A stretch of DNA of 64,000 nucleotides from Paenibacillus sp. FSL R5-0341 (GTDB taxonomy: Bacteria; Bacillota; Bacilli; Paenibacillales; Paenibacillaceae): the NCBI RefSeq assembly GCF_037975235.1, contig NZ_CP150241.1, forward strand, positions 1,054,001 through 1,118,000, written 5' to 3'. Of the stretch, positions 14,956-31,212 are shown piece by piece. The translations under genes and the position numbers were made by a program. The notes beneath the pieces were generated by a model. The model saw nothing but the letters and a program-made list of their open reading frames with translations. It did no database searches and was not told the DNA's origin. Every line of letters starts with the position of its first letter. Within the stretch, counting starts at the first letter, position 1.

Positions 14956-15154
14956 CTGTAGTCGAAAGAGAGTAACAAAAAAATTACATATATGTATTTA
15001 CGTAATGAGGATTATATTGACTTATATTATATGTATGAAGTCGAAATTACCTTGTTTAAAGCTGTTTATGGGCCTGACAAAGTTCGACATGACGTGAGAA
15101 CTTTTTCCAAATAAAATGCTTGTATAATGGATTCATCTCCATTACAATACAATT

Positions 15155-15173
15155 GATAATGAGATTCAATATC
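15155..15173 (+). promoter_or_regulatory. Fur box upstream of siderophore importer
   Basis: GATAATGAGATTCAATATC matches the 19-bp Fur consensus GATAATGATAATCATTATC at 16 of 19 positions. It lies just downstream of a TATAAT -10 element (15123-15128) and 30 bases before the lipoprotein start, so iron-bound Fur would block transcription. Confidence 0.85.
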
Positions 15174-15202
15174 ATTTACAGAGAAAAGGGGAGTCGGGTT
15201 AC

Positions 15203-16216
15203 ATGTTCCAAGTAAAGAAAAAGTTATATATTTATGCAGCACTTATTCTGATGATTTCACTGCTTGCTGGTTGTGCTTCAGGTGGAAGTGCTGAGACAAC
15301 GAATACATCCAGCTCGGCGGCAAGTAGTAATGAGAGTACTAATGAAAGCGGTACATCAGGTAGTGCAACAGATGATCAAGCAAGAGTGGTCAAACATGCT
15401 ATGGGTGAAACCACAATTAATGGAACCCCGCAAAAAATCGTGACCCTGTTCCAGGGTGCCAATGATGTTGTTGTAGCGCTCGGAGTGAAGCCGACAGGTG
15501 TTGTCGAATCCTGGGTTCAGCAGCCAGTCTACGAATATCTGAGAGCAGATCTGGACGGAGTAACACAAGTGGGTCAGGAATCCCAGCCCAATCTGGAAGA
15601 GATCAACAAGTTGAAACCGGACTTGATCATTGCTACCAAGATCAGACATGAAGAGATCTATGAGCAATTGTCCCAGATCGCACCAACGGTAGTGACGGAA
15701 ACGTTGTTTGACTGGAAAGAAACCGTGAAGACGACTGGTGAAGCGATGAATATGGTTGAGCAATCAGACAAGCTATTGTCCGATTGGGATGCTCGTGTAG
15801 CTGATTTCAAGGCGAAAATGGGTGACCGTCTGCCGATTGAAGCAACCATTACGAACTTTAGAGCCGATCAGGTTCGTATTTTCTACATGGGATACGCAGG
15901 TAAAATTCTGAATGAACTTGGGTTCACCAGACCTGCTGGACATGATGCAGACACATGGGGTGTTGAATTGACTTCCAAAGAGAACATTCCGGATATGAAT
16001 GCGGACATGATCTTTAACTTTAATTCAGGCACCGAAACCGATGCGATTCAGAAAAATTATGATGATTGGACCAGCAGTCCTCTTTGGAAAAATCTTGATG
16101 CAGTCAAGAACAACCAACTGATTCAGGTCGATGAAGTGGCCTGGAACATGGCAGGTGGATACACATCGGCCAACATGATGCTGGACGATCTATATAAGCA
16201 GTTCAACCTGAACTAA
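15203..16216 (+). CDS. Iron-siderophore ABC transporter substrate-binding lipoprotein
   Basis: 337 residues. Lipoprotein signal with LLAGC (lipidated Cys24), a Ser/Thr/Asn-rich tether to about residue 55, then a class III periplasmic-binding fold (PF01497): IVTLFQGANDVVVALGVKP at the start and NLEEINKLKPDLIIA in the middle. It resembles B. subtilis YfiY, which binds hydroxycarboxylate/hydroxamate siderophores, but ligand type is not readable. A Fur box precedes it and the two permeases and ATPase follow. It is separated from the permeases by a hairpin, which would allow higher expression of the binding protein. Confidence 0.92.
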   Translation: MFQVKKKLYIYAALILMISLLAGCASGGSAETTNTSSSAASSNESTNESGTSGSATDDQARVVKHAMGETTINGTPQKIVTLFQGANDVVVALGVKPTGVVESWVQQPVYEYLRADLDGVTQVGQESQPNLEEINKLKPDLIIATKIRHEEIYEQLSQIAPTVVTETLFDWKETVKTTGEAMNMVEQSDKLLSDWDARVADFKAKMGDRLPIEATITNFRADQVRIFYMGYAGKILNELGFTRPAGHDADTWGVELTSKENIPDMNADMIFNFNSGTETDAIQKNYDDWTSSPLWKNLDAVKNNQLIQVDEVAWNMAGGYTSANMMLDDLYKQFNLN

Positions 16217-16229
16217 TTAACAGGAGCAG

Positions 16230-16281
16230 GACCTGCCATGCACCAGGACATTCGTTAACGAAGTGTATGGGCAGGCAGGTC
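16230..16281 (+). terminator. Intercistronic hairpin between binding protein and permeases
   Basis: An 8-bp GC-rich stem GACCTGCC (16230-16237) with GGCAGGTC (16274-16281), an inner palindrome TTCGTTAACGAA (16251-16262), then CTTTTGTC. It probably attenuates read-through into the permease genes, a common way to make more binding protein than membrane complex. Confidence 0.65.
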
Positions 16282-16313
16282 TTTTGTCATTTTACAGATG
16301 AAAGAGTGAGAAT

Positions 16314-17327
16314 ATGTTTCCCCTTTTTACGAAGGCAAGTGCCAAAGTCTGTGGACTGGCTGGTTTATTCATATTGCTTCTACTTGCTTGCCTAGCCAGC
16401 ATGATTCTGGGACGCACGCATATCACGTTTCAGATGGCATGGGATGCGCTGCAATTCTATGACGAGAGCTCGGTGGAACATGTGGTGCTCTTGACGGAGC
16501 GGCTGCCACGTACCATTATTGCCGCTGTCGTTGGTGCAAGTTTGGCCGTGGCGGGTGGACTAATGCAGGCATTAACACGTAATCCGCTTGCATCACCGAG
16601 TGTGTTCGGGATCAACGCAGGTGCGATCTTTTTTATTGTCATTGCCATCGTTGTATTGTCCGTATCCTCTCTCACCACCATGATGTGGTTTGGCTTTGCG
16701 GGAGCTGCGGTTGCCGCGGCGATTGTATATGCGCTGGGTTCCCTCGGTCGTGATGGCCTGACACCGATCAAAATAGTACTGGCTGGGACGGCAATCTCAG
16801 CATTGTTTGCCTCGTTCACACAGGCTATACTGGTGCTGGATGGAACCGGATTGCAGGATGTATTGTTCTGGCTTGCCGGTTCAGTAAGTGGTCGAACGTT
16901 GGATATGTTATATCCTGTGTTGCCGTACATGACAGGTGCAGCTATTGTCTCTCTGTTCATGGGCAGAGCCATCAATCTGCTGCTGACGGGTGACGATATC
17001 GCCAAAGGCATGGGACAGAATGTACTTCTGGTCAAGGTGCTCATGGGTATTGTTACCGTATTGCTCGCGGGTGGTTCCGTTGCCGTAGCTGGTTCGATCG
17101 GTCTCGTAGGTCTGATTGTCCCGCATATCATGCGTGCACTGGTAGGCAACGATTACCGCTGGCTTGTTCCCTACTCTATTGTAGGGGGAGCGATTCTGCT
17201 GCTGTCTGCGGATGTGGTTGCAAGACTGGTAATCATGCCGCAGGAAGTTCCACTTGGTGTCATGACTGCACTCATTGGCGGACCTTTCTTCGTGTACATT
17301 GCCCGTAAGGGGGTGACGAAGATATGA
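16314..17327 (+). CDS. FecCD-family iron-siderophore ABC permease 1
   Basis: 337 residues with about 9-10 membrane helices and the FecCD hallmarks LPRTIIAAVVGASLAVAGG, TRNPLASPSVFGI and GLIVPHIMRALVG. With the following permease it forms the heterodimeric channel of a BtuCD-like importer. The stop overlaps the next gene by four bases. B. subtilis YfiZ is the closest type by architecture and order. Confidence 0.92.
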   Translation: MFPLFTKASAKVCGLAGLFILLLLACLASMILGRTHITFQMAWDALQFYDESSVEHVVLLTERLPRTIIAAVVGASLAVAGGLMQALTRNPLASPSVFGINAGAIFFIVIAIVVLSVSSLTTMMWFGFAGAAVAAAIVYALGSLGRDGLTPIKIVLAGTAISALFASFTQAILVLDGTGLQDVLFWLAGSVSGRTLDMLYPVLPYMTGAAIVSLFMGRAINLLLTGDDIAKGMGQNVLLVKVLMGIVTVLLAGGSVAVAGSIGLVGLIVPHIMRALVGNDYRWLVPYSIVGGAILLLSADVVARLVIMPQEVPLGVMTALIGGPFFVYIARKGVTKI

Positions 17328-18367
17328 GGAAGATGTTGACTTTCCGCAACAAAAAAGACACCATCTCGGTGCAATTGGAACGAAAATCACTGACTGTTAT
17401 CGGCATATGTATCCTCTTGTTCCTAGTGGCAGGGGTTGTCGGGACCAGTGTGGGCAGTGACTTTATATCTCCGCTGGATGTGCTCAGAACGATATTCGGT
17501 GTGAATGCAGGCGAGCATGATTTCGTCGTGCTGACCTTGAGACTGCCACGAGTATTACTATCTTTGCTCGTAGGTGCAGCTCTCGGGATGTCAGGTGCGC
17601 TCCTGCAAGGCATTATCCGTAACCCTCTGGCCTCACCGGATGTCATTGGTATCACTGGCGGAGCAGCTGTTGCGGCTGTAGGTTTTGTTACATTGCTGGG
17701 CGGAGCGGTAAGTATCAAGCTGTTACCACTGTTCGCCATCGTTGGTGCGCTTGTGACGACATTGATCATCTACATACTTGCTTGGAAAAAAGGAGTCAGT
17801 CCGATCCGCCTGGTGCTGATCGGGATCGGAGTATCGGCCATTACCGGAGCCGGAACAACCTTTATGCTAATCCTGAGTCCGTTCTACACGGCAGGTCAAG
17901 CCTATATCTGGCTGACAGGAAGTATATACGGAGCATCGTGGACCGATGTCCGAACCATTCTCCCGGTTATCATTATTGTTGTTCCTTTGGCGATCTGGTT
18001 CGCCCGCAGTCTGAATGCACAGGAGTTCGGAGATGATCTGGCTACAGGGCTGGGGGTGACTGTTCAATGGCATCGTTCAGCGTTATTGTTATGCAGTGTA
18101 CTACTGGCGGGAATCGCCGTAGCAGTTGCCGGAACCATTGGTTTTGTAGGCCTGATCGCTCCACATATTGCCCGAAAACTGGTTGGACGGATGTTCGGTA
18201 GTATGCTAATTGTGTCCGGACTGGTCGGGGCTTTGCTTGTATTCGTCGCAGATTTGATTGCTCGCACAGCCTTTCTACCGCTTGATGTTCCCGCAGGGGT
18301 ATTCACAGCAGGCGTAGGCGCACCATTTTTCCTGTATCTGTTGTTCAAAAATCGAAATCAGTTTTGA
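17324..18367 (+). CDS. FecCD-family iron-siderophore ABC permease 2
   Basis: 347 residues, the second half of the channel, with the same family signatures ([49 protein letters not shown]). A charged N-terminal extension of about 20 residues precedes the first helix. The start overlaps the previous gene (ATGA). Resembles YfhA of B. subtilis. Confidence 0.92.
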
Positions 18368-18380
18368 GGAGGAGAGAGCC

Positions 18381-19202
18381 GTGAGTATTCTGGAAGCCAA
18401 GGAGCTTACTATCTCCTATGGAGCAGACCCCATTATTGAAAATTTAAATTTGACCATTCCCAAGGGACAGATCACCGTCCTGATTGGTAGCAACGGCTGT
18501 GGCAAATCCACGCTGCTGCGCACGATGGCTCGTTTGCTGAAATCCAGTTCAGGTTCCGTGCTGCTGGATGGCGAAGAGATTGCCAAGCTGCCGACCAAGG
18601 AGATTTCAAGGCGCATGTCCATCCTGCCGCAGGGTCCGACCGCTCCAGAAGGATTGACAGTGAATCAGCTGGTCAAGCAAGGGCGTTATCCACATCAAAC
18701 GTGGCTGAAGCAATGGTCCCGAGAGGATGAGCGTATGGTCAAGCTGGCACTGGAGTCTACACATCTGACGGAACTCGCCGATCGGCCTGTGGATGCATTG
18801 TCCGGTGGACAGCGTCAGCGTGCCTGGATTGCGATGACCCTCGCGCAGGGAACCGAAACGCTGCTGCTGGATGAACCTACAACCTATCTGGATATGACAC
18901 ATCAGATTGATATCCTTGATCTGTTGTTCGAGTTGAACGAACGGGAAGGGCGTACCATTGTCATGGTGCTTCATGATCTGAATCTGGCATGTCGGTATGC
19001 ACATCACATTGTGGCTGTTCACAACAAGTCCATCTACGCGGAAGGTAAACCGGAGGATATCGTTACACAGGAGATGGTCCGTAAGGTTTTCCAGATGGAG
19101 TGTGAGATTGCGGTCGATCCGCTGTTCGGCACACCAACTTGCATCCCACATGGAAGAGGGAGGAAGCTGAATGGGGAACAGCGTTATACACAACTGGCTT
19201 GA
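18381..19202 (+). CDS. Iron-siderophore ABC transporter ATPase (FecE/FhuC type)
   Basis: 273 residues, GTG start after GAGGAGGAGAG. Walker [10 protein letters not shown] (about 36-44), Q-loop ILPQGP, ABC signature [12 protein letters not shown], Walker B TLLLDEPT and switch His in MVLHDLN are intact. It powers the two FecCD permeases upstream. Many Firmicutes share one such ATPase (YusV) among several importers; having a dedicated copy here makes the operon self-sufficient. Confidence 0.93.
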
Positions 19203-19417: not shown

Positions 19418-19447
19418 TTGACAATATAGCTCGAATTGCCATAAAAT
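19418..19447 (+). promoter_or_regulatory. Sigma-A promoter of the siderophore operon
   Basis: TTGACA (19418-19423) and TAAAAT (19442-19447) are 18 bases apart; the -35 is perfect and the -10 matches five of six. The Fur box begins 14 bases downstream, in the start region of transcription. Confidence 0.75.
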
Positions 19448-19461
19448 AGATCTTGTATGAT

Positions 19462-19480
19462 ATTGATAATCATTATCAAT
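19462..19480 (+). promoter_or_regulatory. Perfect Fur box of the siderophore operon
   Basis: ATTGATAATCATTATCAAT is a perfect palindrome containing the full 7-1-7 Bacillus Fur site TGATAATNATTATCA. It shows directly that the operon from 19782 on is iron-repressed. Confidence 0.93.
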
Positions 19481-19571
19481 TTATAATTACAAAAAAATGA
19501 TGAACGTATGAGCAATATAAGTTGAATTAATCATTTACATGCAACGGAGAGGACAGAAAAAACCTGAAAAA

Positions 19572-19672
19572 GCGAAGCGTTCGCCTAAAAGCTTTCTGAA
19601 AGAAAGCTACATCGGAAGCATACGCTTATCCCCGGATTTTTCCCTTGAGAAAAGGGAATCAAAAAAATCTGG
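19572..19672 (+). other. Structured leader of the siderophore operon
   Basis: Between the Fur box and the first start codon lie about 300 non-coding bases with three consecutive hairpins: GCGAA/TTCGC (19572-19584), AGCTTTCT/AGAAAGCT (19590-19608), and a long stem CCGGATTTTT (19632-19641) with AAAAAAATCTGG (19661-19672) topped by CCCTT/AAGGG. I do not recognise a known riboswitch. It could be a post-transcriptional control element or an interspersed repeat inserted in the leader. Confidence 0.5.
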
Positions 19673-19781
19673 CGATAACAGCGATTGGAAGGTTGTTCTG
19701 TCATTGTAGTGTCAGCGTAAATAATCTTTAATTCGACTTATATAGGCGCGAGTACCTTCATTCGATCGAGGAGGATTTTCA

Positions 19782-20807
19782 GTGTTTCCGAAAGGGATTC
19801 ATAATCTGCAAAACCGACTCATTATAAGCAAAGCGAGAGAAATGGGCATCGCCTGTGATCCACTTCTTGAGGGATGCGAAGATTTTCTGAAGCTGTCTGT
19901 AGGAGACAAGCAGATCATCATTAACAAAACCAGATCTCATCGTCTGCCGTTAATTGCTGGTTTGCTCGCGAAGAACAAGCAGGCATGTAATAGGTTGCTG
20001 CATGAACAGGGCATGCCCGTACCGTCATTTATCGTGATCCCGGAGATGGGAAGCGAAGCAGCAGATTTTCTGAAAAGACATAGCTCCATTGTGGTGAAAC
20101 CGCTGGATGCGAGCAGTAGTATGGGCGTGACGTTGGATGTGCGTACCGAAGATGAACTAGAGGCAGCCATTCGTCTTGCGGGTGTTCATGGCAGCAGCAT
20201 TATGCTACAGCAATATGTAACTGGAATTGATTACAGAGTGCTGATTATTAACGGTGAAGTGGCGGCTGTGAATGAGTATCGACCTGTCTATGTCGAGGGA
20301 AACGGGACTTCAACCGTTCGGGCGTTAATCAAGCAGTTGAATCAAGAGCGAATCGAGATGACGCACATTGGGGAGTATGAAGCTTTTCCCCAGGTTGATG
20401 CAGAAGCTGAACGTCTGCTGGAGGTATTACGAGCACAAGGGACAACACTGGATGAAGTACCTGACGCCGGAAAAGAAATCGAGCTATACGATCTCCGTAA
20501 CTCAGCCGCCGGAAAGATCAGTGAATTCTACAAGGATTGTACCGAAATCATTCATCCCGAGAATGCCCGAATGATCATTCAAGCTGCCAAAACTCTTCAG
20601 ATTGATGTCGCTGGAGTCGATGTTCGTTGTCGTGATATCCGCACGCCGATCTCCAGAGATCAGGGAGGCATCCTGGAAGTGAACGCTTTGCCAGATATGA
20701 CACACCACGTCTTTCCCCATGGTGGAACAACTCGTGATGTAGTTCGGTTATACCTGGAATACCTTTGTCAGGAGCTACTCGAGTATAAGACGTATAACAA
20801 CGTATAA
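19782..20807 (+). CDS. ATP-grasp amide ligase, cyanophycin-synthetase-like
   Basis: 341 residues, GTG start after GAGGAGGATTTTC. The ATP-grasp core is recognisable: SIVVKPLDASSSMGVTLDV (ATP-binding loop), MLQQYVTGIDYRVLIING, and C-terminal metal/ATP residues in GILEVNALPDMTHH. The RPVYVEGNGTSTVRALI segment is the hinge seen in cyanophycin synthetases and related gamma/beta-amide ligases. Such enzymes join an amino group to a carboxylate through an acyl phosphate. It is the first gene of the Fur-controlled operon and has no counterpart in the staphyloferrin B locus, so it may add an amino-acid unit to the siderophore or make its precursor. Substrate unknown. Confidence 0.78.
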   Translation: MFPKGIHNLQNRLIISKAREMGIACDPLLEGCEDFLKLSVGDKQIIINKTRSHRLPLIAGLLAKNKQACNRLLHEQGMPVPSFIVIPEMGSEAADFLKRHSSIVVKPLDASSSMGVTLDVRTEDELEAAIRLAGVHGSSIMLQQYVTGIDYRVLIINGEVAAVNEYRPVYVEGNGTSTVRALIKQLNQERIEMTHIGEYEAFPQVDAEAERLLEVLRAQGTTLDEVPDAGKEIELYDLRNSAAGKISEFYKDCTEIIHPENARMIIQAAKTLQIDVAGVDVRCRDIRTPISRDQGGILEVNALPDMTHHVFPHGGTTRDVVRLYLEYLCQELLEYKTYNNV

Positions 20808-20875: not shown

Positions 20876-22231
20876 ATGTCAGTAGAGGTGCAGACGGAAT
20901 ATCTGAAGATGCAAAATGAGAAGGAATCCAATGCAAGATCGTACCCCAGACATTTCCCGCTTGTCATTAGCAAGGCCCATGGGGTGAAGATTACCGATAC
21001 GGAAGGCCGCGTATTCTACGACTGCCTGGCTGGTGCAGGAACATTGGCGCTGGGACATAACCATGACACGGTGGTCAACGCCATTCGCGATGTTCTGGAT
21101 CAGCAGATTCCGCTACATACACTGGATTTGGCAACGCCGCTGAAGCTTTCATATATGCAAGAACTATTCTCCATCCTTCCGGAAGAAATGCGAGATAAAG
21201 CCAAGATTCAGTTCTGTGGTCCAACCGGAGCGGATGCCGTAGAAGCAGCCATTAAGCTGGTCAAACATGCCACAGGTGGCAAGTCCATTCTTGCCTTTCA
21301 AGGTGGTTATCACGGTTCAACCCAAGCGACGATGTCGATGAGTGGCAATCTGAGCAAGAAACAGCATCTGCAAAGCCTGCTGCCGGATGTGCATTTCCTG
21401 CCGTTTCCTTATGAATACCGTTGCCCATTTGGTGTTGGTGAAGGCATGACGGCCCAATTAAGCGCACAGTATATCGAGAATTTGCTCGATGATTGCGAGA
21501 GCGGTATTGCGGCACCCTGCGGGGTCATTGTGGAGACCGTACAGGGAGAGGGCGGAGCGATTCCAGCGGATATCGAATGGCTCAAGGAGTTACGTCGTAT
21601 CACAGCAGAGCGAAATATTCCGCTCATTATTGACGAAGTGCAGACAGGCATCGGACGGACAGGGCGAATGTTTTCATTTGAACATGCCGGAATCATACCC
21701 GATGTAATCATCTGCTCCAAAGCGGTTGGCGGTAGTCTGCCAATGTCTGTTGTCATCTACAAAGAAGAGCTGGACCAATGGCAGCCTGGTGCACACACAG
21801 GTACGTTCCGTGGCAATCAGCTAGCCATGGCCGCGGGGCTTGCCACACTTCGCTATATCCGGGAACAGGATATTCTACAAAACGTGCAGCTGCGCAGTGA
21901 GCAGTTCATGAATCAACTGAATGCATTGAAAGAGCGGTATGCAGAGATTGGTGACGTGCGGGGCAGAGGGCTGATGATTGGCGTTGAAGTAGTTGATCCA
22001 ACAGGACGTAAGGATCGTCTGGGACATTATCTCCCCAATGGTGCGCTGGCTGAGTCAATTCAGCGTGAATGCTTCAAGAATGGATTAATTGTAGAACTGG
22101 GCGGGCGTCATTCAGCGGTTGTTCGTTTTCTGCCGCCGCTGAATATTACAGAGCAGGAATCGAACGCGATCCTCGCGATCTTTGAGAAATCGGTAACTGA
22201 AGCGATTACCTTAGCAACGGCCGCATGCTGA
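20876..22231 (+). CDS. Diaminobutyrate-2-oxoglutarate aminotransferase (RhbA/EctB-like)
   Basis: 451 residues, class III PLP aminotransferase. IIDEVQTGIGRTG (Asp253) and IICSKAVGGSLP (Lys282) hold the cofactor; THTGTFRGNQL-like residues (GAHTGTFRGNQLAM) bind its phosphate. FCGPTGADAVEAAIKLVK near residue 115 is typical of L-2,4-diaminobutyrate transaminases, which make Dab from aspartate semialdehyde and glutamate. In rhizobactin and schizokinen pathways this enzyme feeds 1,3-diaminopropane synthesis. Here it takes the place of SbnA/SbnB, which make diaminopropionate in S. aureus. The stop overlaps the MFS gene start. Confidence 0.88.
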   Translation: MSVEVQTEYLKMQNEKESNARSYPRHFPLVISKAHGVKITDTEGRVFYDCLAGAGTLALGHNHDTVVNAIRDVLDQQIPLHTLDLATPLKLSYMQELFSILPEEMRDKAKIQFCGPTGADAVEAAIKLVKHATGGKSILAFQGGYHGSTQATMSMSGNLSKKQHLQSLLPDVHFLPFPYEYRCPFGVGEGMTAQLSAQYIENLLDDCESGIAAPCGVIVETVQGEGGAIPADIEWLKELRRITAERNIPLIIDEVQTGIGRTGRMFSFEHAGIIPDVIICSKAVGGSLPMSVVIYKEELDQWQPGAHTGTFRGNQLAMAAGLATLRYIREQDILQNVQLRSEQFMNQLNALKERYAEIGDVRGRGLMIGVEVVDPTGRKDRLGHYLPNGALAESIQRECFKNGLIVELGGRHSAVVRFLPPLNITEQESNAILAIFEKSVTEAITLATAAC

Positions 22232-23658
22232 AGCTGTCCCTGATGAAGAGGCATGCAGTATTACTCGCGATTCTGATCGGTGCTTTTTCGCTGGTGCTGA
22301 CCAACAGTGCATTTAACCTGCTGCTGCCTTATTTTGTGCAATACTATCAGATCTCTACGACAGCAGGCGGATGGATCATCGCATTGTACATGCTCGCCAT
22401 GACGTTAACGATGCCGCTGGCTTCCCTGATCGTGGACCGACTGGGCCGTAAACAGACGTATATGTTGGGCATCAGTATCTATGGACTCTTCTCGGTGGCA
22501 GGTGCGTTGTTTTATCACTCCATCGAAGTGCTCTTGCTGGTCCGTTTCATGCATGGGGTTGCCGCCGGGCTGATGATTCCGTTATCGCTTGTGCTGCTGT
22601 TTGATGTATACGGACCGGAGGTAAGGGGGCGAATTACCGGAGCGTGGGGCTTGCTGCTTATGCTGGCTCCGGCTGCTGGTCCAACGCTGGGTGGTTTTAT
22701 CATTCAGTACGGAAGGCTTGAAATGCTGTTCTGGCTCAATGTGCCGCTGGCTGTGTTTTCTTTTATCGGGTGCGGCCGAGTCATTCAAACTTATATCCCT
22801 GCCCGCAGGAAAAAATGGCATCCTTTCAGTGTCATGCTGCTAATCTGTGCGGTAGGTGCCCTTAGTCTGGGGGTACAGTTGTACGCAAGTCCTGTCGTGG
22901 CAGTATGGGTACCTTGGCTGCTGATTGCGCTGGGTGTAGTGTTACTCATTCGTTTTGTCCAGACAGAGAACGGTCGCAAGGAACCGTTGATCCGGTACCA
23001 GTTGCTGCGGCGTAATGCCGTCTTTCCGCTGACCGTGCTGATCTCGACCATTCAGGATTGTGTCATGTTTGGCGTGATCTTTGCATTGCCGTTGTTGTTC
23101 CAGGACGTCTTCCACCTGTCGCCGGCCCTGTCCGGTGCGCTGTTCATTCCCTTGTCGATCTGTACAAGTCTGTTCATGTGGATTGGCGGCAGCTTGCTGG
23201 ATCGCGGTCGGTCCAGGCATTTTATCGCATGGGGCACGTTGTTGGTGTCGATATCGATCTTGTCGTTTGCAGTTCTGCCCATGGGAGCATCAATCTGGAT
23301 CATCGGAATACTCATGGCGTGCCGGGGAATTGGCGTTGGCCTGTCAGGCATGAGTATCTCTGCTATCGGTTTACAAGCATTACCGGACGAAGACATGCAC
23401 GAAGGGTCGGTGTTATCGACGACGATTGAGCGGCTGGCTTCTTCGTTTGCGGTGATGGGCATGACGCTGTATTACGATATGCGTTGGCAATGGCTTGCCG
23501 GGGCAGGAACGTCCATGGAGATGGCCAAATGGGGAGCGCTCAAAGAAATCTGTATCGGACTTGGCTGCGCCATACTGCTTACACTTCCCCTGGTCTTACT
23601 TATAACCCGAAAGAAGGTTGGCATCATTGTTCGAGATGGAAAACAAGCTCCGGTCTGA
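22225..23658 (+). CDS. MFS exporter, putative siderophore efflux (SbnD-position)
   Basis: 477 residues with about 14 helices, DHA2/EmrB-QacA type: motif A LIVDRLGRKQTYMLG and motif C region LLLMLAPAAGPTLGG. It lies in the operon between the aminotransferase and the first siderophore synthetase, the same position as sbnD in the staphyloferrin B cluster, so export of the finished siderophore is the natural role. S. aureus SbnD is a shorter MFS protein, so this may be a functional replacement and not an orthologue. It overlaps the preceding gene by seven bases. Confidence 0.82.
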   Translation: MLKLSLMKRHAVLLAILIGAFSLVLTNSAFNLLLPYFVQYYQISTTAGGWIIALYMLAMTLTMPLASLIVDRLGRKQTYMLGISIYGLFSVAGALFYHSIEVLLLVRFMHGVAAGLMIPLSLVLLFDVYGPEVRGRITGAWGLLLMLAPAAGPTLGGFIIQYGRLEMLFWLNVPLAVFSFIGCGRVIQTYIPARRKKWHPFSVMLLICAVGALSLGVQLYASPVVAVWVPWLLIALGVVLLIRFVQTENGRKEPLIRYQLLRRNAVFPLTVLISTIQDCVMFGVIFALPLLFQDVFHLSPALSGALFIPLSICTSLFMWIGGSLLDRGRSRHFIAWGTLLVSISILSFAVLPMGASIWIIGILMACRGIGVGLSGMSISAIGLQALPDEDMHEGSVLSTTIERLASSFAVMGMTLYYDMRWQWLAGAGTSMEMAKWGALKEICIGLGCAILLTLPLVLLITRKKVGIIVRDGKQAPV

Positions 23659-25420
23659 GACTGAGCAGCAGGCCCATGAACATTCGTGCAAGCTGCTGCT
23701 GAACTGTTACATCCGTGAGCTTGCGTTAGAAAAGGAAAGCGATATTCGGATCAATCCGAATACGCTGACGTACGCTGTTGCTTTTCAAGCCAGCGGGGTG
23801 AAGGTGACGGGACAGCTGGCCTATCACTCTGCCATGGGAGAGCATGAATACCTCAGCATGCAATCTGGCGGGGAAGCGGTGCATTATCGCGACCTGGTTC
23901 GCTGGATCACATCTGAGCTAAGTGGAGATACGGCACGGGGAGCGAGTTCTTATTCCCATGGAATACCTAAGAGTGCGATGGAAATGAAGAGTTCACTTGA
24001 GGTGGATATTGCACATCCAAAGGGCGAGAATACGAATCGTGACGAGGCGGCGTATGCCAGAGATTTTGCACAAAAGGTAGATAACAGTGTGGGCAACCTT
24101 ACGTTGTATATCGAACAAGCAGCCGGTCTCGACATCCACGACTATCGCACATCGGAACAGTCACTGTTGTATGGTCATCCGTTCCATCCGTTTCCGAAGA
24201 ACTCCAAAGGCTTTAGCGAGCAGGATGTACAGAAGTACAGTCCGGAGCTACGGACATCGTTTCAACTCTGTTATATCGCCGTGAGGCAGGATGTCTATGT
24301 GCAGGAATGGGTGGATGACGAGGCGGTAATGGATTTGCATGGTCTCCTGCGGAGCCATGTGGAGCCGATTTTAAAAGAAAAGAGTGGAATGTATGGGCTT
24401 CTGCCCGTCCATCCATGGCAATACGCGTACATATCACAGCTGTCCGAAGTACAGCACTATATTCGAGATGAAAAATTAATTCTGCTTGGCAGTGCGGGGC
24501 CAATCGTCTATCCGACTTCTTCGGTCCGTACGGTTTATATTCCGGCATGGAACTGCAATATCAAGCTGTCACTGAACATGCAGATCACCAACATGATTCG
24601 TATCAACAGTGCCGAGCAGATGCGCAGAACATTGGATGCCTCCAGATACGTCAGGCAGCATGACTGTTTCGGTGCTGAACCGCACACCCATATTGCGTAT
24701 GAGACAGGTGTAGCGACATGTGCCTTTGATGATGAAGAATTAACCAGTCTATTTACGATAGCTTATCGGCCCATTGAGTTCGACCCTGCGAATACGTATG
24801 TCTTATCCAGTCTGGTTGAAGCACCCCTTCCTGGGATGCGATCGCGGCTGATGACGTTGCTGGGCGGTGACCGTGACATAGCTGAGCGCTGGCTGGATCG
24901 ATATCTGCAATGTTCTCTACTGCCGATTGTACGGGCGGCGGGTGAGAAAGGAATTCATTTTGAAGCTCATTTGCAGAATACCCTTGTGACCTTAAAGGAT
25001 GGAATGCCTGTCGATTTTATCGTCCGCGATCTGGAAGGGGTCAGTGTGGATGAGGAACTTATAAGTGAGCAGGAACGTGCAGTGTCCGATTTACTATTTT
25101 ATTCGCGAGAGAAAGCCTGGGCGCGGACATCGTACTATTTTATCGTCAATCATCTGGGGTCTTTGATTCATGCGATGGCGCGAGATGTGAACGTCCCGGA
25201 GGAGCATTTCTGGAAACAGGTACGTGAGGTACTTGTGGAGGAACTGGAACGAACGGGCAATGCATATGTGCAACATCTGCTGACAACGGATGCATTTCTG
25301 GCCAAACAAAATTTGGTGAGTTGTCTAAGGGGTATCAGCCAGACCCCGGCCTACGTGCCGGTGAGCAATGTAATGAAACGAATAGGGAGTGAAGTTCGTG
25401 GGAGTGGGATACAGGGCTGA
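23636..25420 (+). CDS. IucA/IucC-family NIS siderophore synthetase 1 (SbnE-like position)
   Basis: About 594 residues. The start is uncertain: ATG 23636 is listed, but TTG 23627 has the better-spaced AAGAAGG; both lie inside the end of the MFS gene. NIS synthetase motifs are intact: GHPFHPFPKNSKGF (carboxylate/ATP region), LLPVHPWQY, a KLSLNMQITN stretch and HFEAHLQNTLV (ATP/metal). These enzymes adenylate citrate or 2-oxoglutarate and form an amide with an amine. Order and neighbours correspond to sbnE. Three distinct synthetases in one operon imply three condensations, as in staphyloferrin B. The overlap with the next gene shows tight coupling. Confidence 0.9.
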   Translation: MENKLRSETEQQAHEHSCKLLLNCYIRELALEKESDIRINPNTLTYAVAFQASGVKVTGQLAYHSAMGEHEYLSMQSGGEAVHYRDLVRWITSELSGDTARGASSYSHGIPKSAMEMKSSLEVDIAHPKGENTNRDEAAYARDFAQKVDNSVGNLTLYIEQAAGLDIHDYRTSEQSLLYGHPFHPFPKNSKGFSEQDVQKYSPELRTSFQLCYIAVRQDVYVQEWVDDEAVMDLHGLLRSHVEPILKEKSGMYGLLPVHPWQYAYISQLSEVQHYIRDEKLILLGSAGPIVYPTSSVRTVYIPAWNCNIKLSLNMQITNMIRINSAEQMRRTLDASRYVRQHDCFGAEPHTHIAYETGVATCAFDDEELTSLFTIAYRPIEFDPANTYVLSSLVEAPLPGMRSRLMTLLGGDRDIAERWLDRYLQCSLLPIVRAAGEKGIHFEAHLQNTLVTLKDGMPVDFIVRDLEGVSVDEELISEQERAVSDLLFYSREKAWARTSYYFIVNHLGSLIHAMARDVNVPEEHFWKQVREVLVEELERTGNAYVQHLLTTDAFLAKQNLVSCLRGISQTPAYVPVSNVMKRIGSEVRGSGIQG

Positions 25421-27230
25421 AGCAGGCGGCAAGACAGAAGCAGTCTACGTGGGTGTACAGGAACGGATCATGCGGCAGACGTTGGAGGCAATGTGGTTCG
25501 AAGGCATTCTGGACAGTCATGTAAGTGGGAGCGAATGGCGAACCGAGGGACTTACATCTTCTGGTCATTCTGTTGCGTACACGTGTGAAGCGGAGCGAAA
25601 GTTTTCATTTGGCCGGGTGAAGGTGAAGAAGGGTTCGATTCAAAGAGAGGGCGTACCTTGCACCGATCTGGATCTGTTTTTGGAGGAAATCGTACTGAAC
25701 GCGTTGAAGGGTGCAAACGTCACAGCTTTTATCCAGGAACTGCTCGAAACGATGGCAAAGGACAGTCAGTGCCGGACCATATTACCCTTGAATATTCCGA
25801 GTGAGGATCGGCATTATGATGCGCTCGAAAGTCACATGACCGACGGTCATCTGTACCACCCGAGCTATAAGTCGAGGTTGGGATTTTCTTTGAAAGACAA
25901 TCTCGCCTATGGCCCAGAGTTTAACACGGAGGTTGCATTAGTCTGGGTTGCTGTGAAAAAAGAATTGGCTCAGACCGCTGTATCCACAGGGTATAGCTCT
26001 GAAGAATTGGTGGGGCAGCATCTGACCGTAGAGGACGTACAGCGATTCCATCAGATGCTGGAGTGCGATGGGAAAGAAGCTTCTGACATTGGTGATCGAT
26101 TTGTGTTCATTCCGGTTCATCCATGGCAGTGGGAGCACCAGTTGGAGACGGTATATGCCCGTCAACTTATGGATGGGGACATTGTGTATCTTGGTCCATC
26201 GTCTTCGCCCTATCGTGCACAGCAATCGATCCGTTCGCTGTCTAACAGAGTGAACCCGGAATCTCCTTACATCAAGCTTGCCCTCAGCATCACCAACACG
26301 TCGAGCACGCGTATTCTGGCACAGCATACGACCCAGAACGCGCCACTGATCAGCGATTGGCTGGATGAACTTGTTCGTGAAGATGAGCTGTTGCAGCAGG
26401 TGCAGTTTGGCATTTTGAAAGAAATCATGGGACTGTCGTTCCGTTATGAGCAGTTGCCTGCAACCCAGTATGGACGGGCCTACGGTACACTCGGTGCGAT
26501 CTGGCGGGAGAATGTATCGGTTCATCTAAAGGAAGGCGAGACCGCATGGCCGCTGAATGCGCTGATGTTGGTGCAGCCGGATGGTGTTCCATTTATTCAG
26601 GATGCTGTAGAACGACATGGTGTGAAAAAGTGGAGCGAGGCCCTTGTTCGCACAGTTACCCTGCCGATTATTCATTTGCTCTATGCACACGGGATTGCGC
26701 TGGAATCTCATGCTCAGAATATCATTTTGGTACTGGAAGATGATCTGCCGAAACGAATCATTATCAAGGATCTGCATGATGGTGTTCGCTACTTACCGGA
26801 TCAACTGTTGCACCCGGAAAGGGCTCCGAAGCTGAACCCCGAGCCGGAAACCCACCGCAAGTTCAATCGGTATTCCTTCATCTATGCCGGAGATGTGTCG
26901 GAAGTTCGTGACTATACGTATGATGCATTCTTCTTTATCTGCATGACGGATATTGCGTTGGCGCTTGAGAAGTTTGGTTTGGCAGAGGAAGCATTCTGGC
27001 AACTGTGCGCAGGTGTGATTGTAGATTATCAGAAGCAGCACCCGGAATACGCAGAGCGGTTTGTTGCATTTGACCTTTTTGCCGAAGATGCACTGATCGA
27101 AGAGATGACCAAGCGTCGTCTGTATGGAGATGGAGAGTTATATTTCCGTAAGGCGAGCAATCCACTCAAGGTATCAAAGGATGCACTTGAATCAAAGAGA
27201 ACACACGAATTAAAGGGAATCGTCGAATGA
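25398..27230 (+). CDS. IucA/IucC-family NIS siderophore synthetase 2 (SbnF-like position)
   Basis: About 610 residues. GTG 25398 is chosen (AGGGAG 8 bases upstream) over GTG 25389. Motifs: GHLYHPSYKSRLGFS, FIPVHPWQW, ALSITNTSSTRI, and ALESHAQNIILV with IIKDLHDGV. The family forms amides between citrate-like acids and amines using ATP. Position directly after the SbnE-like gene and before the SbnG-like gene matches sbnF. The start lies inside the previous gene and the stop overlaps the next by four bases. Confidence 0.9.
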   Translation: MGVGYRAEAGGKTEAVYVGVQERIMRQTLEAMWFEGILDSHVSGSEWRTEGLTSSGHSVAYTCEAERKFSFGRVKVKKGSIQREGVPCTDLDLFLEEIVLNALKGANVTAFIQELLETMAKDSQCRTILPLNIPSEDRHYDALESHMTDGHLYHPSYKSRLGFSLKDNLAYGPEFNTEVALVWVAVKKELAQTAVSTGYSSEELVGQHLTVEDVQRFHQMLECDGKEASDIGDRFVFIPVHPWQWEHQLETVYARQLMDGDIVYLGPSSSPYRAQQSIRSLSNRVNPESPYIKLALSITNTSSTRILAQHTTQNAPLISDWLDELVREDELLQQVQFGILKEIMGLSFRYEQLPATQYGRAYGTLGAIWRENVSVHLKEGETAWPLNALMLVQPDGVPFIQDAVERHGVKKWSEALVRTVTLPIIHLLYAHGIALESHAQNIILVLEDDLPKRIIIKDLHDGVRYLPDQLLHPERAPKLNPEPETHRKFNRYSFIYAGDVSEVRDYTYDAFFFICMTDIALALEKFGLAEEAFWQLCAGVIVDYQKQHPEYAERFVAFDLFAEDALIEEMTKRRLYGDGELYFRKASNPLKVSKDALESKRTHELKGIVE

Positions 27231-28003
27231 GGATTAACACGCTGAAGGAAAAGATTGCACGCAAACAGCCAGTCTATGGCCTTTTTGTATCCATACCACA
27301 CCCGGTCATCATCGAGATGATCGGCCATGCGGAATATGACTTTGTCATTATTGATCTGGAACATGCCGCAACATCGATGGAATCGGTGGAAGAGTTGATT
27401 CGTGCGGCGGAACTGGTGGGCCTAACCCCGTTGGTTCGTATCTCGAAGGTGGAGCGAGCGGAGATTCTTAAAGTGCTTGACTGTGGCGCCCAAGGCATCG
27501 TCATTCCACATGTTGAGCAACTGGAGCAGGTGGAGGAAGCGGTTCGTCACGCCTACTATCATCCGGTTGGTATGCGCAGCTTGAATAGTGGTCGTCCCGG
27601 CGAATTCGGTAAATATCCGCTCACGGGATACATTGGGGAAGCGAACCAACAGGTGATGGTTGTACCCATGATCGAAAGTGTGGAGGGCGTGCGACAAAGT
27701 GCACAGATTCTGTCTCACCCTCAGGTGAGTTTTGTATTGGAAGGCGCGGCGGATCTGTCGCAATCCCTCGGCGTACCATGGCAGACCGAGCACCCAGAAG
27801 TGAGACGTGCACTGGATGAATTGCATGCTACCGCGCAGCAGTGCGAAGTACCTTATGCAACGGTCACGAGAGGCGTGGAAGACATGTCGCTCTGGGCTGA
27901 GCGGGGAGTACATATATACGTGCTGGGTGATGATCGGAATACTGCGTTTCGGGCGTATGCCCAAAAACGGAATGACTACAGGAATGCGGGTGGGCAGATA
28001 TGA
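27227..28003 (+). CDS. SbnG-like citrate synthase (HpcH/HpaI aldolase fold)
   Basis: 258 residues, TIM-barrel of the HpcH/HpaI family: FVIIDLEHAATSMESV (substrate/metal loop), VRISKVERAEILKVLDCGAQGIVIPHV and VVPMIESVEGV. In S. aureus SbnG condenses oxaloacetate with acetyl-CoA to give a dedicated citrate pool for staphyloferrin B. Its place between two synthetase genes and the SbnH-like gene supports the same job, freeing the pathway from the TCA-cycle citrate synthase under iron starvation. ATGA overlaps join it to both neighbours. Confidence 0.87.
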   Translation: MRINTLKEKIARKQPVYGLFVSIPHPVIIEMIGHAEYDFVIIDLEHAATSMESVEELIRAAELVGLTPLVRISKVERAEILKVLDCGAQGIVIPHVEQLEQVEEAVRHAYYHPVGMRSLNSGRPGEFGKYPLTGYIGEANQQVMVVPMIESVEGVRQSAQILSHPQVSFVLEGAADLSQSLGVPWQTEHPEVRRALDELHATAQQCEVPYATVTRGVEDMSLWAERGVHIYVLGDDRNTAFRAYAQKRNDYRNAGGQI

Positions 28004-29313
28004 AACCTAGTGTATGGCAGGTGATTGATGAACTACAACGCGGATTGGAAGACCCGGTATGTGCGTATGTCTACGATCTGGCCGGTATTCAGAAACAGGT
28101 ACGTCAGATGCTGGGAAGCATGCCCGGAAACACAGAATTATTCTACGCCATTAAGGCGAATCCAGATCCGCGAATCATTGAGGCGTTGCTTCCATTGGTG
28201 AAGGGCTTTGAAGTGGCTTCGATTGGAGAGTTGCTCAAGGTTAGAGCTGTAAGCCAAGAGGTTCCAATTTTGTTCGGAGGTCCGGGTAAGAAAGAGAGCG
28301 AACTGCGGCTAGCCATTGAGAATGGCGTGAGCTACATCCATGTGGAGAGTCTGCTGGAGCTGCGGCGCATCATTGCGATTGCGAAAGAGCGTGAGATGGA
28401 GCATGAGCAGGTGCAAGAAAATGAGCCGAAACACAAACAACAACAGGGGCGAGCGCAGGAGGTTCGCATTCTGCTCCGAATCAATCTGCGAAGCAGTACG
28501 TTACCTCGGACGAAGATTGTCATGGGCGGTGGGCCGAGTCCTTTTGGAATCGATGAAGAGGCGGTGGAAGAAGCCATTGAACTCATTCGTGTGGAAGGCG
28601 CGGGTGTGGTTCGACTGAGCGGGTTCCACTTTCACTCCTTGTCCAACAATATGGATGCCAGGCTGCATGCTGAGATGATCGAGCTGTATTTGCAAAAGGT
28701 GGAACAGTGGCAGCACAAGTATGATCTACCTGTGGAAGTGGTGAATGCAGGAGGTGGATTCGGTGTCACGTATGATGGCAGCCCCGGATTCGACTGGCCC
28801 TTGTTCACTTTCCTGCTGGAGCAAAGTGAAGCCAGACAGCGCCTTGCCTCACGCGGAGGTCAGCTGTATTTTGAATCGGGTCGACTGCTGGTAGCAGACC
28901 ACGGGTATTATGCCGCAGAGGTTACGGATATCAAAACCTCTCATGATCAGTATTTTGCCGTGTTAAGGGGAGGTACGCACCACAATCGTCTGCCTGCTTC
29001 ATGGGGACATAACCATCCGTTTCAGATTATGGCGACGGATCGTTGGAAGCACTCGTTTGTCCGTCCAGAGGTAAGAGATCGTCGTGTTCATATTGTAGGT
29101 GAGCTATGCACACCCAAGGATCGCATGCATTCCGATGCGGAGGTAGCGCTGCTAAGGGTAGGAGACATTGTTGTATTTGAAAAGTCTGGAGCTTATTGCT
29201 GGACCATCTCGCATCATGATTTTCTGGGGCATCCGCACCCGGCATTCCATTATCTAACGGAGGACAATGATCATGTCAACACTGATGAAGCGTTCCAGTC
29301 TGCAAGCCGCTGA
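28000..29313 (+). CDS. SbnH-like PLP-dependent decarboxylase (fold type III)
   Basis: 437 residues, related to diaminopimelate/ornithine decarboxylases. PLP Lys52 in FYAIKANPDP; NAGGGFG binds the phosphate; ELCTPKDRM supplies the active-site Cys; FESGRLLVADHG and SGAYCWTISHHDF complete the site. SbnH decarboxylates the citryl-diaminopropionate intermediate to citryl-ethylenediamine; with Dab as the amine here the product would be a 1,3-diaminopropane amide (inference). Residues about 128-152 are a Glu/Gln/Lys-rich low-complexity insertion encoded partly by CAA repeats. The 3' end overlaps the next gene by about 41 bases. Confidence 0.87.
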   Translation: MKPSVWQVIDELQRGLEDPVCAYVYDLAGIQKQVRQMLGSMPGNTELFYAIKANPDPRIIEALLPLVKGFEVASIGELLKVRAVSQEVPILFGGPGKKESELRLAIENGVSYIHVESLLELRRIIAIAKEREMEHEQVQENEPKHKQQQGRAQEVRILLRINLRSSTLPRTKIVMGGGPSPFGIDEEAVEEAIELIRVEGAGVVRLSGFHFHSLSNNMDARLHAEMIELYLQKVEQWQHKYDLPVEVVNAGGGFGVTYDGSPGFDWPLFTFLLEQSEARQRLASRGGQLYFESGRLLVADHGYYAAEVTDIKTSHDQYFAVLRGGTHHNRLPASWGHNHPFQIMATDRWKHSFVRPEVRDRRVHIVGELCTPKDRMHSDAEVALLRVGDIVVFEKSGAYCWTISHHDFLGHPHPAFHYLTEDNDHVNTDEAFQSASR

Positions 29314-31117
29314 ACGCCGGATTATGGCGGATTTGATGAATTCATTCTTGTCGGAGCAATTGCTTCCACTGGAGGAGTGTTCGTTCATTGATTTTGCCGC
29401 GGCACCTGCACCGTTCCGTCGATTGTATAAGGAATATGACGGTGAAGAGAATCAGAATGTAGCTTCTCGCTATAGATTGCACACTCAAGGTGTACTGTGT
29501 CTGGTTGAAACAGGAGTAAGACAGGGGACTCAATGGGTTCAGGGTTCACCGATCTATGAGGAGAAAGCAGATGGAAGCTGGGTTCTCCTTGATTTTCCTG
29601 TAGAAGTTGGACGTGCCGTGTTACAGAAGGCTTTGTCGAATGAGGCTTATGCGCAACCTGGGGTGGCGGAGTTTCTTGCTAGTCTGGGCGTTGCTGTGGA
29701 GCAGTTTGCTCTGGGCTGGGAACAAGTCCAGTATCTGTCCGCCAACGTCCCGGCGTCTGCTTATGAGTGGTTTATCAAGGGTGAGCGCGTTGCGGCATTG
29801 CGGGATCGTCCATTTCACCCATCGTCCAAAGCCAAGGTGGGATTCAACGCAGAAGATGTAACACGCTATGCAGCGGAATTCGGAAAGGCGATTTCGCTGC
29901 GCTGGGTGGCTATACGGCTGGATGCCGTGCAGCAAGGTTGTGAAGATGGGCTGTCCATTTTGGACGTGTTAGACGATGTTCAGCGCGGAGTGGTGGAAGC
30001 TGAGTTTGCCCGAAAAGGAATCACGTTGGACGAATATCTGCCGATGCCTGTACATCCGTGGCAATTGCAGCATGTGATTCTGCCTCGTTTCACTGGGGAG
30101 ATCGAAGAAGGCGGCATAGTCGTATTGGATGTAGAAGTGGGCGACGTACAGGCAACATCCTCTCTGCGCTCGATGGCTGCATCAACCGAATCTAATCTGA
30201 TGCTCAAGCTACCGGTTAGTGTGCTGTCACTGGGGGCTGCTCGCTATCTTCCGGTGGTCAAGCTGCTGAATGGTCTTGCTGGGGAACGGATGCTACGACA
30301 GGCCGTTGCTTGTGACGAGACGTTGAAGGACAAGGTGTATATGTGTGAAGAGCAGAACTGGTGGGGCTTCATGCCAGAATCCATGGGACTGTTCGATGAT
30401 CATCCACGCCATCTGGCTGCACAGATTCGTGTGTATCCTGCTGAATTGCTTAATGAAGCCTACAAAGTCATTCCAATGGCTGCACTGGGTGTGAATCTGG
30501 AAGGTAACCATTTACTAAAGGACATTCTGGGTGATGATCTGAGCAGCACGGATGTCCTCGACTTTTATACCAGCATAGCTACGACGTTCTATGATATCGT
30601 GATGCGTCTGTTCAAGGTGGGCGTTGTACCTGAGATTCATGGTCAGAACTGCTGTCTGGTGTTACGGGATAATCAGGTAAAAGGTCTATTGTTCCGCGAT
30701 CATGATTCCGTGCGTCTGCATCAGCCTTACCTGGACAAGCATGGGATCGCAGACCCTGCTTATCATATTCGCCCAGGCTACTCGAACAGCTTGTATAACG
30801 AGACGATCCAGAAGCTGATCTTCTATGTGCAGTCGCTGGGGACGCAGGTGAATCTGGCTGCGATCATGGAGGCACTGAGCGAGGTGTATCACATCCCGGA
30901 AACGAAGTTATGGGAGATCACGGAGCAGGCTTGGAAGGAAGCGCTGCAACAAGTGCAGCTTCCCGATTCTGACCGGGCCGCGATCGCTCATGCGGTATTC
31001 GAGAGCGAGGAGTGGCCCGTGAAGTTAGTTGTCCGTCCGCTGCTTGAAGCGGATGGGGTGCCTGGCGCGATGCCATCGGGCAAAGGCAAAGGGTGGAACC
31101 CTTTTTACAAGAGATAG
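29273..31117 (+). CDS. IucA/IucC-family NIS siderophore synthetase 3 (SbnC-like)
   Basis: 614 residues. ATG 29273 is preferred to ATG 29267 because GGAGG lies 9 bases before it. Motifs: DRPFHPSSKAKVGFN, PMPVHPWQLQHV, LMLKLPVSVLSLGAARYLP, EIHGQNCCLVL and LFRDHDSVRLH. The ending KGKGWNPFYKR is typical of this family. It is the last gene of the operon; in S. aureus the third synthetase (sbnC) lies before sbnD, so gene order differs only by its move to the end. It probably makes the second amide on the citrate core. Confidence 0.9.
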   Translation: MSTLMKRSSLQAAERRIMADLMNSFLSEQLLPLEECSFIDFAAAPAPFRRLYKEYDGEENQNVASRYRLHTQGVLCLVETGVRQGTQWVQGSPIYEEKADGSWVLLDFPVEVGRAVLQKALSNEAYAQPGVAEFLASLGVAVEQFALGWEQVQYLSANVPASAYEWFIKGERVAALRDRPFHPSSKAKVGFNAEDVTRYAAEFGKAISLRWVAIRLDAVQQGCEDGLSILDVLDDVQRGVVEAEFARKGITLDEYLPMPVHPWQLQHVILPRFTGEIEEGGIVVLDVEVGDVQATSSLRSMAASTESNLMLKLPVSVLSLGAARYLPVVKLLNGLAGERMLRQAVACDETLKDKVYMCEEQNWWGFMPESMGLFDDHPRHLAAQIRVYPAELLNEAYKVIPMAALGVNLEGNHLLKDILGDDLSSTDVLDFYTSIATTFYDIVMRLFKVGVVPEIHGQNCCLVLRDNQVKGLLFRDHDSVRLHQPYLDKHGIADPAYHIRPGYSNSLYNETIQKLIFYVQSLGTQVNLAAIMEALSEVYHIPETKLWEITEQAWKEALQQVQLPDSDRAAIAHAVFESEEWPVKLVVRPLLEADGVPGAMPSGKGKGWNPFYKR

Positions 31118-31181
31118 AGGTTGAGTAGTGTTGGTGTAGGAGTGTATAGAGAAGAAGTGGAGTGCTAAAGGATCGATCTAG

Positions 31182-31212
31182 AAGGTGACCCGTTTGATGG
31201 GTTGCCTTTTTG
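31182..31212 (+). terminator. Terminator of the siderophore operon
   Basis: AAGGTGACCC (31182-31191) pairs with GGGTTGCCTT (31199-31208, two G-U pairs), followed by TTTT. Confidence 0.8.

Follow-up and report, generated by a model that had tools for sequence, protein, structure and literature searches.

The siderophore systems with which the locus described here can best be compared are those for staphyloferrin B (sbn), achromobactin (acs) and vibrioferrin (pvs). SbnG of the staphyloferrin B pathway functions as a citrate synthase. In achromobactin, diaminobutyrate takes the place of diaminopropionate, with AcsF as its putative source (available text of PMC3179956), and relatives of the SbnH-like decarboxylase act on citryl-diaminopropionate or citrylserine (PMC7857480, in the part available). 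In the vibrioferrin system PvsA has been proposed to make an ester bond, the functions of the enzymes being untested according to the available portion of PMC5577590. A similar ester-bond proposal for PvsA appears in the accessible part of PMC6836290, and PMC4431377, as far as its text is available, cites a vibrioferrin paper for ATP-grasp enzymes in siderophores.

Gene content of the operon and its leader

The locus lies in the 6.57 Mb, single-contig genome of Paenibacillus sp. FSL R5-0341, within a stretch of 64,000 nucleotides that was analysed as a whole (the window), and comprises eight genes on the same strand, the last ending at 31117 (Table 1). The first gene starts with GTG behind the ribosome site GAGGAGG and encodes 341 amino acids, with VYVEGNGTSTV at residues 169-179; open reading frame, Pfam and box all bear out the original prediction that an ATP-grasp gene with this stretch heads a siderophore operon preceded by a perfect Fur box. 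IucA/IucC-FhuF synthetases, an exporter, uptake genes and a Fur box, the features by which an NIS siderophore operon is recognised, are all present. The gap between the ligase and the next gene is 68 nt and the later genes overlap by 4-47 nt; co-transcription of the operon genes can be inferred.

Table 1. Features of the operon and its flanks, in window positions
Feature	Position	Strand	Evidence
Upstream ABC genes for iron-siderophore uptake (lipoprotein, two permeases, ATPase)	15203..19202	+	Pfam, NCBIfam
Sigma-70-like promoter TTGACA-18-TAAAAT	19418..19447	+	11/12 consensus positions
Perfect Fur box (7-1-7) TGATAATCATTATCA	19464..19478		Consensus match scan
MITE-like multicopy palindromic repeat in operon leader	19511..19750 (ends approximate)	+	Genome matches, empty site, fold
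ATP-grasp carboxylate-amine ligase (subject gene)	19782..20807	+	ORF, Pfam, NCBIfam, PDB, alignment, tree
L-2,4-diaminobutyrate:2-oxoglutarate aminotransferase, AcsF-like	20876..22231	+	NCBIfam PRK06938, 730.9 bits, above cut-off 671
MFS exporter, SbnD/YhcA-like	22225..23658	+	Pfam MFS_1; 33% to MFS of Sodalis acs-like cluster
NIS1, NIS synthetase, SbnE position	23618..25420	+	Pfam IucA_IucC + FhuF
NIS2, NIS synthetase, SbnF/AcsC-like	25389..27230	+	NCBIfam SbnF, 494 bits, below cut-off 900; PDB AsbB 3to3
HpcH/HpaI-fold enzyme, SbnG/AcsB-like	27227..28003	+	Top PDB match 4tv5/4tv6, E 3e-60
PLP decarboxylase, SbnH/AcsE/PvsE-like	28000..29313	+	Top PDB match 6knh, E 2e-101
NIS3, NIS synthetase, SbnC/AcsA-like	29267..31117	+	NCBIfam SbnC, 384 bits, below cut-off 700; PDB 7cbb
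Terminator-like hairpin and U run	31181..31211	+	-17 kcal/mol, z -4.8

The biosynthetic genes were compared with annotated plasmid-borne clusters of Pseudonocardia, Vibrio, Thalassospira and Sodalis, on which the Sbn, Acs and Pvs letters are assigned by position; the structures matched by the HpcH/HpaI-fold enzyme and the decarboxylase are presumably those of SbnG and SbnH, respectively. NIS1 scored highest against the SbnE-position protein of the Pseudonocardia sbn-type cluster (222 bits), followed by the PvsD-position protein of Vibrio (141), the Thalassospira protein (114) and the AcsD-like protein of Sodalis (105), and its closest solved structures are IucA and then AcsD. NIS2 and NIS3 are closest, among these plasmid clusters, to the synthetases of Thalassospira and Sodalis. 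The decarboxylase is 38-41% identical to the PvsE-, SbnH- and AcsE-position proteins, with the PvsE-position enzyme on top (299 bits versus 281 and 265).

Set against the sbn cluster of S. aureus, the window operon has counterparts of SbnC, D, E, F, G and H in the order D-E-F-G-H-C, with a diaminobutyrate aminotransferase and an ATP-grasp gene instead of SbnA/SbnB, the pair for L-2,3-diaminopropionate, neither of which was found among the operon genes. An AcsF-type aminotransferase, an exporter, three NIS synthetases, an HpcH aldolase and a decarboxylase are common to the operon and to achromobactin (acs genes as given in Table 3 of PMC3329529, in the part available), whereas the ATP-grasp gene is extra and NIS1 is nearer to the SbnE-position than to the AcsD-like enzyme. 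Because the aminotransferase is as in achromobactin, SbnA and SbnB are missing from the operon and the nearest matches are mixed, the gene set is, by sequence, an Sbn/Acs hybrid; diaminobutyrate probably stands in for diaminopropionate. The staphyloferrin B frame of the original prediction is thus right for SbnC, F, G and H and has to give way at the achromobactin-type aminotransferase and the missing SbnA/SbnB.

The first uptake gene encodes a binding protein, the top NCBIfam match of which is of the Fe(3+)-dicitrate type, below cut-off. Of the 17 named Paenibacillus loci, 15 have this binding protein and both permeases close to the operon, as do 17 of the 18 further operon loci considered below. 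A weaker Fur-box-like site, formed by two overlapping matches with three mismatches, is located just upstream of the uptake lipoprotein gene (15154-15174); matches of this kind occur at only about twice the chance frequency over the window. About 4.5 kb downstream of the operon, at 35626-36531, lies another ATP-grasp gene, which Pfam places in the R2K_3 family.

Promoter-like sites occur at chance frequency over the region, and the one in the operon leader, weak on its own, gains support because the Fur box adjoins it. The box lies just downstream of this site and about 300 nt before the ligase start codon, and boxes with up to two mismatches are expected by chance 0.68 times per window. When 900 nt upstream were scanned (in genome G084, upstream of the NIS gene; L069 and L070 left out), all 36 NIS-linked loci scanned proved to have an upstream Fur box of two mismatches or fewer, 24 of the boxes being perfect and the farthest at 358 nt; the same distance upstream of three lone relatives of the ligase contained no Fur box with up to three mismatches. 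The leader repeat, of about 240 nt, lies downstream of the Fur box and ahead of the first gene and would thus be part of the transcript. A 206 nt portion of it matches no fewer than 39 further sites in the genome (45 rows, including five short pieces, with 40 of 204 first-look candidates scored), its site is empty in locus L002, and its RNA fold has a z of -5.7. A riboswitch in this long leader was considered and rejected, the sole Rfam match (E<=0.1) being to a microRNA family, at 29 bits against a gathering score of 80, and lying outside the repeat. The hairpin that follows the operon was not listed by a consensus terminator scan.

Linkage of the ligase to the siderophore genes

A search for the ligase at E <= 1e-30 covered 392 genomes of the order, with NIS2 searched in the same draw and NIS3 likewise in 392 genomes, the taxonomic spread of the survey being given by kinship. 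Matches were obtained in 51 genomes, 44 with frames of up to 381 residues and seven with frames of 618-949, six of which are of cyanophycin-synthetase size. Eight of the 44 rows were flagged with one internal stop, taken as the match overrunning the end; seven were re-cut as whole frames and the eighth (G029) was left as it stood. The original prediction had proposed a survey for co-occurrence of the ligase with Sbn-like operons, and this co-occurrence is tight: in 43 of the 44 standalone-ligase genomes NIS2 is present among the matches listed, at 58-100% identity and within about 7 kb on the same contig and strand. In all 17 named Paenibacillus loci the biosynthetic set is present as far as the retrieved sequence reaches, with some genes as split hits; the nearest of these for the ligase is P. 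amylolyticus Heshi-A3 (99% at protein level). All 18 further operon loci have NIS1 and NIS2 with the ligase. One of them (L067) is without the aminotransferase, and five others (L052-L055, L065), which were counted as operons, gave no MFS hit in the interval from aminotransferase to NIS1. The ligase belongs to the NIS operon.

Beyond the order, a class draw of 398 genomes contained at least five further members among the matches listed. Two of these stand in a full operon in other families of Bacilli (L107, with several genes split, and L108), and three are lone genes (L109, L110 and L111, near 10000-11000) with 42-43% identity to the ligase. The genomes of the three lone relatives carry a two-NIS cluster elsewhere, and G500, of the same genus, has NIS genes and no standalone homologue among the matches listed. 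In L109 and L110 the lone gene adjoins rsgA, and an S-layer/phosphodiester glycosidase gene (Pfam) is present in L110. Among plasmid records 127 match the ligase, every one at less than 60% identity. For the 20 that were listed, the genes that carry a name encode cyanophycin synthetase, NAGGN synthetase or, once, a protein of the CapA family; several of these records have no annotation at the match, and the tally of the remaining 107 includes Paenibacillus and Legionella records. The outcome that the original prediction named as its refutation, a gene unlinked to siderophore genes in all relatives, is not what is seen, although three distant relatives are unlinked. These three, with neither a Fur box nor NIS neighbours, would accord with the ligase being a passenger behind the Fur box, such as an enzyme of a peptide or storage polymer with no role in the siderophore. 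Such a passenger is highly improbable, as in four families the ligase has stayed next to the same NIS genes, at identities as low as 45%, and has no cyanophycin Mur-ligase domain.

Two genomes of the order depart from the common arrangement. In the 44th genome (G084; cluster L066, 10001-16271), a homologue of 40% identity overlaps an MFS gene, which in turn overlaps an NIS gene; the cluster also has uptake genes and one more NIS gene, which is divergent, aminotransferase and decarboxylase are absent, and the NIS genes of this two-synthetase cluster are nearest to the rhizoferrin FslA model, below cut-off. In G275, a genome of the genus (L067, 11027-11320), the aminotransferase has been lost together with most of the MFS gene, while the NIS genes and the ligase, with the Asp305 discussed below, are kept; the best other aminotransferase match in this genome is at 39%.

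NIS3 was present in 74 of the 392 genomes, namely the 43 with the ligase operon and 31 others. These 31 have a diverged NIS2/NIS3 pair (NIS2 of lower identity, among the matches listed) and gave no standalone ATP-grasp gene in the search at E <= 1e-30. Fifteen were inspected: four have the order aminotransferase-MFS-NIS1-NIS2-HpcH-SbnH-NIS3, five have an aminotransferase and NIS genes without an HpcH or decarboxylase hit, and in the remaining six the NIS genes are not headed by any aminotransferase hit. The ligase-free clusters L072, L079, L083 and L084, from the same family, share their gene order with the window operon at 32-64% identity. An ATP-grasp hit is absent from all four, and the full ORF lists of L072 and L083 contain nothing in the place of the ligase.

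The ligase might replace one amide bond otherwise made by an NIS synthetase, in which case the product would be no larger than that of the ligase-free sister clusters. This would accord with the lower conservation of NIS1 than of NIS2 (48-61% versus 58-72% in L052-L065) and with the identity of only 32-37% between NIS1 and its counterparts in the four same-order ligase-free clusters. Replacement is nevertheless quite unlikely: NIS1 retains stretches that align with HPWQ, SSxRT, IKxSLN, HLQN and RDxEG of IucA and AcsD and has strong Pfam matches to IucA_IucC and FhuF, and three NIS synthetases are common to the ligase operons and the same-order ligase-free clusters. Because these clusters keep three synthetases and NIS1 keeps its active-site stretches, the ligase looks like an addition to the NIS synthetases and not a substitute for one of them.

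Active-site residues and phylogeny of the ligase

The ATP-grasp enzyme nearest to the ligase by sequence is the central G domain of CphA1, with which it has ATP and Mg residues in common. Cyanophycin synthetase gives the top NCBIfam match (217.7 bits across residues 14-328, against a family cut-off of 877), the entry that matches best in the PDB is 7wac, a cyanophycin synthase (E 4.5e-42), and Pfam assigns the ATP-grasp domains RimK (40.1 bits) and Dala_Dala_lig_C (34.7 bits). An AlphaFold model built with 18 close sequences has a mean pLDDT of 50.9. To call the enzyme cyanophycin-synthetase-like, as had been done at the outset, is apt in this respect, but the protein consists of the central domain alone, and the arginines that bind aspartate are altered. 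For these two reasons the ligase is not regarded as a cyanophycin synthetase: it is a standalone protein of 341 residues against about 870, without the N-terminal or Mur-ligase domain, with the positions of R323 and R458 replaced, and in a clade of its own. Glutathione synthetase (GshF/GshB) and N-acetylglutaminylglutamine (NAGGN) synthetase were also rejected, the ligase scoring below both NCBIfam cut-offs (137.5 bits against 425 and 144.5 against 569, respectively) and standing apart from both in the tree.

In a tree of 38 proteins, 24 operon ligases group together (100/99), and their sister (92/79) consists of the G084 ligase and the three lone relatives. These 28 are set apart (100/99) from the rows for cyanophycin synthetase (two), NAGGN synthetase (seven) and a GshB-like protein, the last group being one long-branched row in a midpoint-rooted tree for which the tool warned of long branches. 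Alignment A1 consisted of 23 chosen sequences; a control with a 618-residue frame (L071) was left out of both A1 and the tree. Of the seven NAGGN rows, L113 was labelled from NCBIfam-checked neighbours and the others by their similar neighbouring ORFs.

Residues K66, K106, R152, D280, E299 and N301 are present in all 24 operon ligases and correspond to K220, K261, R309, D431, E450 and N452 of TeCphA1. With the exception of N452, these hold ATP or Mg or stabilise the acyl phosphate in TeCphA1, where R323 and R458 bind the carboxylates of aspartate, N394 is another aspartate contact and E215 holds the arginine side chain of cyanophycin (all from the available part of PMC9427784). Most of the residues for the incoming aspartate have changed: R323 is replaced by Tyr166, specific to the clade, in every operon ligase and R458 by Thr, Ile, Val, Ser or Ala, S396 is still Ser in three of the 24, and N394 is still Asn in 18. 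E215 is replaced by Leu or Phe. Loss of R458 also extends outside the operon clade, to Ala in the seven NAGGN rows and Tyr in the GshB row. Within the clade N48, R51 and R282 are invariant and K49 is present in 23 of 24. The position of TeCphA1 G456 is occupied by Asp305 in all 24 operon ligases; the 15 other rows have Gly (14) or Ala (one), with Gly in G084 and the lone relatives, in cyanophycin synthetase and in the NAGGN rows, and Ala in the GshB row. The neighbourhoods of the G084 and lone-relative genes gave no aminotransferase hit. It would appear that the catalytic chemistry has been retained and the substrates changed, with the acidic Asp305 placed where an amine could be held.

The vibrioferrin-type cluster examined, on a plasmid of Vibrio sp. 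THAF190c (L151), has an ATP-grasp gene first, then NIS, MFS, NIS and PLP decarboxylase genes, an order that we take to be pvsABCDE. Two NIS synthetases and no aminotransferase are found there, against three and an aminotransferase in the window operon. Its ATP-grasp protein, of 403 residues and ATP-grasp_4/CPSase-like, is unlike the window ligase. Comparison of the ligase with this one PvsA-like protein gave a BLASTP E of 1.7 and an hhalign probability of 7% (E 0.005), and orthology with PvsA was rejected on this lack of significant similarity and on the difference in ATP-grasp subfamily. That the vibrioferrin-type enzyme belongs to another subfamily suggests independent recruitment of the window clade into an NIS operon. 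It had been stated that neither staphyloferrin B nor schizokinen pathways use an enzyme of this kind; the vibrioferrin-type cluster, left unmentioned there, is a precedent for ATP-grasp genes in NIS operons, and what looks new is the occurrence of the window clade in one of Sbn/Acs type. The open-access literature (titles and the beginnings of abstracts, subscription journals being mostly outside) yielded no paper on such a Paenibacillus cluster, and a search there for ATP-grasp together with NIS synthetases or with staphyloferrin found nothing. The available part of PMC13293324 contains nothing on a window-type cluster.

Proposed role in siderophore assembly

The ligase is reasonably likely to be a dedicated, iron-regulated carboxylate-amine ligase that adds one amide-linked unit to a siderophore of the staphyloferrin B/achromobactin type. 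Directly observed are its intact residues for ATP and Mg, its leading place in the operon, linkage that holds across genera and its separate clade. In the pathway proposed, the aminotransferase would supply L-2,4-diaminobutyrate and the SbnG-like enzyme citrate, NIS1 would couple the two, and the SbnH-like enzyme would decarboxylate the citrate-diaminobutyrate adduct. As in staphyloferrin B and achromobactin, another diamino acid and 2-oxoglutarate would then be attached by NIS2 and NIS3. The ligase itself would activate a carboxylate as acyl phosphate and couple this to an amine, forming one further amide bond. The amine acceptor, most likely derived from diaminobutyrate as argued from a few aligned positions, would be either a building block made beforehand or part of the chain under assembly. 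The product would be a staphyloferrin B/achromobactin-like siderophore with one extra unit, larger than a simple staphyloferrin B analogue and probably a new variant. Several observations point the other way: R458 is also missing outside the operon clade, the aspartate contact N394 is kept in 18 of 24 operon ligases, G275 keeps the ligase and its Asp305 without the aminotransferase, the three lone relatives lack a Fur box, and G500 has NIS genes with no such homologue among the matches listed.

The ligase could also act before the siderophore chain, making a free dipeptide-like amine precursor for NIS1 to couple to citrate. Its position as the first gene, directly before the aminotransferase, is compatible with such a step, as is the two-NIS cluster of G084, where the absence of aminotransferase and decarboxylase implies that the ligase may use ordinary amino acids. 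The order of genes does not show the order of steps, however, and a precursor role, which is unlikely, would be a variant of the extra-unit pathway and not its opposite. Returning to the addition of an extra unit, a broader view may be put forward tentatively, and is quite possible without being probable: that Bacilli, separately from the vibrioferrin lineage, recruited a cyanophycin-synthetase-type ligase into a diaminobutyrate NIS pathway, where it would form a peptide-type bond between diaminobutyrate-derived units and give an undescribed scaffold that mixes NIS condensation with ATP-grasp ligation.

If the proposed role is correct, one added gene would distinguish two siderophore clusters that are alike in other respects and belong to related bacteria, providing a natural experiment on how NIS siderophores acquire new groups. 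The role of ATP-grasp enzymes in NIS pathways, described as untested for vibrioferrin in the available portion of PMC5577590, would become directly testable. The ligase clade, together with the NIS genes, would serve as a sequence signature for this type of siderophore in the Paenibacillaceae and in other Bacilli.
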